DNA of 64,000 nucleotides from Antedon mediterranea. Taxonomy: Eukaryota; Echinodermata; Crinoidea; Comatulida; Antedonidae. A program made the position numbers and the translations under genes. The notes under the pieces were generated by a model. It searched no databases, had not been told where the DNA came from, and saw only the letters and a program-made list of their open reading frames with translations. Position 1 is the first letter of the stretch. Every line of letters starts with the position of its first letter. Positions 31,432-57,192 of this stretch are shown piece after piece. Location: the NCBI RefSeq assembly GCF_964355755.1, contig NC_092676.1:24348288-24412287 (forward strand). Reading direction: 5' to 3'.

Positions 31432-32859
<1,428 letters not shown>

Positions 32860-32862
32860 TAG

Positions 32863-53669: not shown

Positions 53670-56495
53670 ATGGTAAGTTATGACTCGTGTTTGTTTTTTG
53701 AAATAGTGTAATTTGACGTTCTTATCTTCTGAATCTAAACGGTCTTTAAAATAGGTAGTTTATATTAAATCTCCCATGACAAAAATAAAACGCGCAAAGC
53801 TGTCATTTATTCGGAAATCTCTATTAACGGATATCTCTATTGCTTGAAAAAATGACGCGCCAATCGACATTTTGATGGTATCGGGAATAGCATATTATAG
53901 TTTTTGCCTGAAATTGCCATCGTTGAATTCATAAGTTCGGAAGACACAATTTTAATTACTCGTTTCTTTTGAATTTGATGTACGCTCAATTATTGATAAA
54001 GTAAAGTAAAGTTACGTTATTCGTATTTAATCTGACCACTCATTTGCAGCGTCGGTACTACGGTTCCACTTATAAACATACCATTGGTCTAAAAACACGT
54101 ACTTTCAAATCTAAATCTTACCTACACATAGCCGATAATAAGATACCATAATACTGTACATCCGAATAACATGATTTGGCACCCCAATGCCTGGCCCGTT
54201 ATTCTGATAAGCATAGAATGTTAATCGTTTTTTAATTTATATTTAATAATTTAATATGTAATCTATATCAATATGCTATTACACTCGAGAGCCAATTGAC
54301 ATAAGAGTGAAATAAAGTCTGTTCTAATAATATTCAATCTATTTTAGTATTGTATTAAGTACTGTACTGTATTTTATAACGTACAATAGGAATAGAGTAA
54401 ACATTGGAGTGCCCTCTAAAAAGTTAAGTAATGAAACTGTTCAGTACTAAAGCAGAGTGACTGAATGTATTGACTCTGAACAGAAAGGTGACATGCGAGC
54501 AATTACTGATTGGATCTTATTTAATTTTGTCAATAAATTATACAATGATATCTTTGCTATACTCTTAAAATACATTTGTGAAAAATTAGTATACATAAAA
54601 ACATTTAAGTTCATAGTTTAGGCCTAAGTTGTCTATAAAATAAAATGGATAATATGTTAATATTTAGCGTGAATGTATCTCAATCCATATTGGCCAAGCC
54701 GGTGTTCAGATGGGCAATGCCTGCTGGGAGTTGTACTGCTTGGAGCACGGTATCCAACCTGATGGGCAGATGCAAAATCTAGGGTTAAGTGACGCTCCCC
54801 TACGAGGAGGCGATGATTCTGTGAGTACCTTCTTCCTCGAGACTAACGCAGGACAGTGGGTTCCGCGAAGTATCTATGTCGATTTAGAGCCTAGCGTTGT
54901 AGGTGAGTTGATTTTGTATTTTAAATCTTTAAAAAACAAGGCCAATAGCCACAAGTCGCGTGCTAAAACGCATAGTGATACCGGACCGACAGACAGACAG
55001 ACCGACCGACCGACCGACCGACATAGTGAACTATAGAGTCGCGTCCACGCGACTAAAAATGCCTATTCATCACTGATGAATCAATTTACAAATATTGAAT
55101 CCCAATCACGTCCATTCAATGTGTCGACTGGTGTCCAGCTGGTTTTAAAGTCGATATAAACTACTGTACCAACCACCAACTATGGTACCAGGAGCCGAGC
55201 TTTTTGTATGTTGAGCAACAAAACAGCCATCGCCAAGGCATGGGCTCGTCTTGATCACAATTTGATTGAATCCTAACATGGTGGTGTGTTTCATTGATCA
55301 GAGGCCCTGTAAGAACATGTATTTGTGAAAATACGTCACCCTAAATGTGTTTTCGTTTTCAGACGAAGTTCGAACTGGTCCATATCGAAAACTCTTCCAT
55401 CCTGAGCAGTTGATTACAGGAAAAGAAGATGCTGCCAACAACTACGCCCGCGGTCACTACACTGTTGGAAAAACACTGATTGACCAAACGGTCAACAGAA
55501 TTCGCAAACTTGCCAACCAGTGTACTGGTCTTCAAGGATTCCTGATCTTCCACAGCTTCGGTGGTGGCACTGGATCCGGATTCACCTCCCTTCTTATGGA
55601 ACGTCTTTCTGTTGATTTTGGAAAGAAGTCAAAGCTTCAGTTTTCAATTTATCCAGCACCTCAGATTTCTACCGCTGTTGTTGAGCCATACAACGCCATT
55701 TTAACAACACACACGACTCTAGAGTTTTCTGACTGCGCTTTCATGGTTGACAACGAAGCAATCTATGGGATCTGTAACAGTAATCTAGACATCGAAAGAC
55801 CAACGTATACCAACCTGAACCGCCTGATTGGCCAAATTGTTTCATCTATCACCGCGTCTCTTCGATTCGATGGCGCATTGAACGTAGACTTGACAGAGTT
55901 CCAGACCAACTTGGTACCATACCCACGTATCCACTTCCCTCTTGCTACTTACGCCCCAGTCATCTCAGCAGAGAAAGCGTTCCACGAACAGCTAACTGTT
56001 GGAGAAATCACCAACTCCTGCTTTCTTCCACAAAATCAGATGGTGAAGTGTAATCCCCGTCACGGCAAATATATGGCTTGTTGTCTGCTGTATCGAGGTG
56101 ACGTAGTACCGAAAGATGTCAACGCAGCTATTTCTGTCATCAAGACAAAGAGAACAATCCAGTTTGTCGACTGGTGTCCAACTGGTTTTAAAGTCGGAAT
56201 CAACTACCAACCACCAACTGTGGTACCAGGAGGTGACTTGGCCAAGGTACAACGTGCCGTATGTATGTTGAGCAACACCACAGCCATCGCCGAAGCATGG
56301 GCTCGTCTTGATCACAAGTTCGATCTGATGTACGCCAAGCGTGCATTCGTACATTGGTACGTTGGTGAAGGTATGGAAGAAGGAGAGTTCATCGAGGCTC
56401 GAGAAAACTTGGCAGCATTGGAAAAGGATTACGAAGAGATGGATATTGATTCATATATAGACCAACAGTATGACTTAGAAGGAGAAGAATATTAA
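53670..56495 (+). CDS. TUBA: divergent alpha-tubulin gene 8 (456 aa, no Lys40, unusual tail)
   Basis: Coding exons: ATG 53670-53672, 54668-54902, 55363-56495; the codon-76 phase-1 intron is kept. The 456-residue product keeps GGGTGSG, Glu254 and terminal EEY, so it should still polymerise. The luminal loop is changed: after DGQM it reads [11 protein letters not shown] instead of PSDKTIG, which adds four residues and removes the acetylated Lys40. Nearby GKHVPR is GQWVPR. Further changes include NSN for RRN before LDIERP and CNPRHG for CDPRHG. The tail [18 protein letters not shown] is unlike any other copy. The first ~105 nt of exon 2 are nearly identical to the sister genes and then diverge abruptly. 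The stop codon lies inside a MITE target site. No near AATAAA was found. A specialised isotype (for example germline or ciliary) is an inference. Confidence 0.92.
54932..55056 (+). repeat. GACC-rich repeat with 3' hairpin, copy 2
   Basis: Same order as the copy at 44640, with GACA/GACC microsatellite and hairpin GTCGCGTCCACGCGAC ending CTAA. It lies in intron 2 of tubulin gene 8, next to the tubulin fragment. Confidence 0.55.
55102..55268 (+). pseudogene. alpha-tubulin exon fragment inside intron 2 of gene 8
   Basis: Aligns with the coding region for about residues 342-397 (GTCGACTGGTGTCC through GCATGGGCTCGTCTTGATCA). It has a 23-nt deletion in the DLAKVQRAV segment, small insertions (CTACTGTACCAACC) and substitutions. 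Same orientation as its host gene, flanked on the left by the GACC repeat. Not coding. Confidence 0.85.
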
Positions 56496-57008: not shown

Positions 57009-57192
57009 TTAAGCTTGGTTCCCACTAGAACGTAACGCAAGGACGTAAACGCAACGCAAGCGTTTTAACCAATGACAAGCGAAGTTATAGACAGTTAGCA
57101 ATCACAAGCGAATAAGCCATCGCTTGTGATTGGTCAATTCACTTGCGTTGCGTTACGCCCTTGCGTTGCGTCGCTAGTGGGAACCACGCTTA
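57009..57192. mobile_element. MITE family 3, palindromic
   Basis: AAGCTTGGTTCCCACTAG with CGTAACGCAAGGACGTAAAC at the left is mirrored by TTGCGTTGCG and CTAGTGGGAACCACGCTT at the right. Nearly half of each arm is self-complementary. Confidence 0.7.

Follow-up and report, generated by a model that had tools for sequence, protein, structure and literature searches.

The window analysed here, a 64-kb stretch of one contig (C7:24348288-24412287), lies within a tandem array of alpha-tubulin genes. Few proteins are as conserved as alpha-tubulin, and gene 8 of the window (T8) is a strongly divergent copy. Rebuilt from the window, the spliced T8 open reading frame encodes an alpha-tubulin of 456 aa with no internal stops, covered over its full length by the tubulin GTPase and C-terminal domains (Pfam PF00091, PF03953) and aligning end to end with solved alpha-tubulins in the PDB. 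Both the GGGTGSG motif and the alpha-specific context of the catalytic Glu254 are kept. The candidate initiator codon sits in a separate exon 1, beyond the span 54668-56495 that the initial annotation gave to the gene (Table 1). Intron 2 also holds a GACC tetranucleotide microsatellite (54984-55022), and nested inverted repeats with arms of 19-35 nt, resembling a small palindromic mobile element, lie downstream of T8 (57010-57192); a similar stretch apparently occurs upstream of exon 3 of S3, an alpha-tubulin gene at locus L007. No Rfam RNA and no tRNA was found in the 64-kb window.

Table 1. Features of T8, in window positions
Feature	Position	Strand	Evidence
Predicted exon 1, coding part: ATG, then gtaagt donor	53670..53672	+	Best upstream ATG|GTAAGT candidate; ATG-then-intron design as in neighbours
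Exon 2, canonical codons 2-75 and first base of codon 76; bears altered K40 loop and GQWVPR	54668..54902	+	Acceptor ATTTAG, donor GTGAGT
Altered K40 loop, lysine-free and extended by four residues relative to the canonical loop	54774..54806	+	Sequence; alignment with paralogues
Intron 2, 460 bp, phase 1 in codon 76	54903..55362	+	GT-AG; position common to T6, T7, T9, T11
Decayed copy of alpha-tubulin codons ~339-393 within intron 2	55109..55265	+	Sequence matches
Exon 3, remainder of protein through TAA; GGGTGSG, Glu254, tail	55363..56495	+	GT-AG junction; Pfam PF00091, PF03953

The K40 loop and its status across the genome

The luminal loop of T8 was originally described as replaced and four residues longer. 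Its length and its lack of lysine stand, but the replacement is not wholesale. At the nucleotide level, canonical CAGATGCCAAGTGACAAGACCATCGGA has become CAGATGCAAAATCTAGGGTTAAGTGACGCTCCCCTACGA through a net in-frame insertion of 12 nt before the conserved AGTGAC (Ser38-Asp39), followed by four substitutions (K40A, T41P, I42L and G43R). Position 40 thus aligns with alanine, and no lysine occurs anywhere in the loop. We also confirmed that GKHVPR of the canonical genes reads GQWVPR in T8, and that the unusual tail, Glu254 and the terminal tyrosine are present as claimed. The protein ends in GEEY, retaining the terminal EEY, and its tail past KDY carries 5 glutamates, where the other array genes apart from A01 have 7-10. 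Among the alpha-tubulin genes of this genome, the four-residue extension and GQWVPR are confined to T8. Among the best 60 PDB sequences, all ordinary alpha-tubulins, the top alignment revealed no solved relative with the same loop.

We then considered all alpha-tubulin genes of the 354-Mb, 18-contig genome. The animal is probably an echinoderm, as a bindin-like match and alpha-tubulin introns placed like those of sea urchins (PMC6539552) suggest; the assembly gave no COX1 match. The alpha-tubulin genes number 20, of which 15 form one array (C7, 24.31-24.43 Mb) and 5 lie elsewhere. K40 is kept in 15/20 and is absent from T8, A01 (C7:24.319 Mb), S1 (on C10), S4 (C7:30.02 Mb) and S5 (C7:30.03 Mb). 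Since four other genes also lack it, K40 loss is recurrent in this genome, and this census rules out a loss unique to T8. The view of T8 as a singular K40-less isotype does not hold, all the more as such isotypes are well known (PMC5384676, PMC8987236, PMC9036621). The proposal that T8 is an isotype without an acetylatable Lys40 that can still be detyrosinated agrees with the gene content: the genome encodes an ATAT1-like gene (PF05301), for whose product T8 would offer no loop lysine, and vasohibin exons on C10 (PF14822), for whose product the retained EEY is a predicted substrate end.

Several other tubulin loci also came to light. A far more divergent alpha-tubulin (L009, C7:30031200-30034500) is 62% identical to T8 and has an intact predicted frame of 446 aa; its loop is shortened and lacks K40, its tail ends in EEQF, and it is close to the K40-less S4. 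Within the window, T3 (31506-32862) has one A too many in a run (GGCAAAAGAAG) near codon 96, causing a frameshift; it is a pseudogene or an assembly error. A tandem array at C8:9643402-9672632 (G000) holds five very similar genes that are about 39% identical to alpha-tubulin and are probably beta-tubulins, together with one match containing an internal TAG.

Mosaic structure and selection

T8 is not uniformly diverged. The first 109 nt of exon 2 share 89-94% identity with most other array genes, up to the loop. In codons 334-374, T8 and T11 agree at 44 polymorphic columns in a row (2000 permutations gave at most 32), and windows spanning codons 326-425 have a mean third-position identity of 0.75-0.82, compared with 0.38-0.66 elsewhere. 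Codons 2-36 and ~326-400 look homogenised with paralogues, whereas codons 37-325 are diverged. The simplest reading of this pattern is that gene conversion has acted at both ends and left the middle unconverted, which would make T8 a copy whose middle part escaped the homogenisation of the tandem array. The decayed fragment in intron 2 is on the same strand as T8, has gaps and stops, and is equally close to T8 and T11; it matches the stretch in which T8 appears homogenised with T11.

A mosaic of paralogue-like ends and an unlike middle is also what an artefact of assembly or gene modelling might produce, for example a chimaera of a canonical and a diverged gene. We regard this as improbable: the genome has no second copy of the odd exon 2, with matches either ending at nt 109, at the loop, or going on at 73-78%, and no other copy of the diverged middle from which to build a chimaera. 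The T8 frame is moreover intact across the junctions, and a tandem array can be expected to contain conversion tracts.

The divergence of T8 is large. It has 42 private residues, against 0-4 in 10 of the 13 other array genes modelled, and its branch in the tree measures 0.19, the median for end branches being 0.027. To estimate selection, we wrote a GY94-type branch codon model (F3x4); as a single-tree model, it is only approximate for T8 because of gene conversion and weak tree support. Omega was 0.133 on the T8 branch versus 0.041 in the background (single ratio rejected, p 1.3e-8), and omega = 1 was rejected on the T8 branch (2dL 89.0, p 3.9e-21). Outside the homogenised tracts, in codons 37-325, omega was 0.116 (omega = 1 rejected, 2dL 52.5, p 4e-13), and T8 and T5 differ there at 39/19/116 sites by codon position. 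Neutrality was rejected in all blocks tested (whole gene, exon 2, exon 3, codons 37-90, 37-325, 91-325 and 326-400), with omega poorly estimated in codons 37-90, where the T8 branch is saturated (t = 12). Other fast paralogues have an omega of 0.05-0.08; among the fast-evolving genes, A01 (L001, C7:24318668-24320724) and S1 (L005, C10:16680249-16681718) carry 29 and 30 private residues at an omega of about 0.08. We conclude that T8 is under purifying selection, with constraint relaxed about threefold or redirected; part of the raised omega may reflect relaxed constraint.

These values bear on whether T8 is a pseudogene or a decaying copy, as its divergence, the decayed tubulin fragment in its intron and the frameshift in its neighbour T3 might suggest. 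The open reading frame and splice sites of T8 are intact, however, differences are in excess at third positions and omega = 1 is rejected, and we judge decay to be very improbable. The initial annotation had called for dN/dS on the branch, taking a value near 1 as a sign of decay; at 0.13 with 1 excluded, the T8 branch shows no such sign. The codon models refute decay over the past history of the gene, leaving very recent silencing as its only possible form.

Lateral-contact loops and the case for function

The changes of T8 are concentrated in the K40, H1'-S2 and H2-S3 loops, the socket for the M-loop of the neighbouring protofilament. Residues 37-67 and 80-90 hold an excess of private changes (14/42 versus 19/395, odds ratio 9.9, p 1.5e-7), a descriptive test, as the region was picked after the loop had been seen. 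Twenty changes affect positions that do not vary among the 16 other genes in the comparison, including G57, K60, H61, R214, E297 and D306. The lateral bond is built by H1'-S2, H2-S3 and the M-loop, the first two forming the socket (PMC10519996, PMC5418579), and in ciliary doublets P32-T41 and T56-K60 are contacts of filamentous proteins in the lumen (PMC5418579). In simulations, the microtubule lateral bond includes a pairing of R214 with E330 (PMC10519996). R214, R215 and D306 are conserved positions with phenotypes in yeast and patients, and human tubulinopathy variants are known at S54, K60 and Y161 (PMC10707541). T8 is altered at all six of these last positions. It retains both E55 and H283, an inter-protofilament salt-bridge pair proposed to be under K40 control (PMC10707541). 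K60 is another reported acetylation site (PMC11006419).

K40 loss alone need not matter much, because neurite form in C. elegans changed little when MEC-12 carried K40R or K40Q (PMC11216746). The concentration of changes in lateral and luminal contact loops, of which the initial annotation saw only part, is the more telling feature of T8 and a stronger clue than the missing lysine.

Could these changes nonetheless be drift? If T8 were a redundant copy in the array with relaxed constraint, it would be translated and tolerated, its loop and contact changes serving no dedicated role. Such an account would fit an omega about three times the background, the redundancy offered by 20 alpha-tubulin genes and the many changes at normally invariant positions, some of them tubulinopathy sites (PMC10707541). 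It sits less well with an omega of 0.13, far below 1 in each of the blocks tested, with the lack of any stop or frameshift despite a long silent-site distance, with changes that are clustered rather than scattered, and with an intact GTPase and longitudinal core. We therefore consider drift a serious but rather unlikely explanation. The likelier reading of the sequence is that T8 is a working, specialised alpha-tubulin born in the array, whose lateral contacts and luminal surface have been retuned and which cannot be acetylated at K40.

Predicted role and known relatives

As a specialised isotype, T8 would most likely co-assemble with beta-tubulin through its intact GTPase/Glu254 core, while the altered K40, H1'-S2 and H2-S3 loops, together with the changes at R214, R215 and D306, would retune protofilament lateral contacts and the luminal surface. 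Because the luminal loop is rewritten and holds no lysine, the product cannot bear the usual Lys40 acetyl mark, and it is predicted not to be acetylatable at K60 either; its EEY tail should still be open to detyrosination. Without K40, Glu55 may form a permanent bond with His283 on the adjacent protofilament, giving an acetyl-like state as proposed for acetylated microtubules; alternatively, the arginine gained at position 43 may behave like K40R. The changes in its luminal loop suggest that T8 is used in a special, probably non-axonemal array, given that ciliary tubulins have conserved inner surfaces (PMC5418579) and that the Naegleria isotypes, which lost K40 and diverged at lateral contacts, are confined to mitosis (PMC9036621). 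Expression, polymer properties and cell type are matters that we infer for T8. In its strongest form, which we hold to be unlikely, the extended, non-acetylatable loop and the lateral loops would set an unusual protofilament geometry or exclude standard luminal proteins, thereby defining a dedicated array in one cell type of this probably echinoderm lineage. T8 offers a natural test of whether protofilament geometry and resilience are determined by the luminal loop and its acetylation.

Divergent K40-less isotypes are already known elsewhere, and T8 is a further example with an unusual extended loop, probably best read as comparable to vertebrate TUBA8, the K40-less isotypes of C. elegans or the mitotic tubulins of Naegleria. 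TUBA8 is likewise a divergent isotype, changed both in its tail and in its loop, where alanine replaces K40, but it has a lysine two residues on and ends in phenylalanine, whereas the T8 loop has no lysine and four extra residues and its tail ends in EEY (PMC5384676); orthology is not implied, since T8 belongs to a local tandem array. In C. elegans, 8/9 alpha isotypes lack K40 and exist alongside a K40 isotype, in contrast to the 15/20 genes that keep it here, and the likeness rests on K40 status, not loop sequence (PMC8987236). The mitotic alpha-tubulins of Naegleria have lost K40, and their divergent positions are enriched at lateral contacts and the interior surface; they belong, however, to a remote lineage, lack the C-terminal tyrosine and are used in mitosis only (PMC9036621). 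Every alpha-tubulin surveyed in the sea urchin Paracentrotus lividus had K40, although the genes share their intron positions with those described here: after codon 1, at codon 75 in phase 1 and, in some genes, at codon 125 (PMC6539552).
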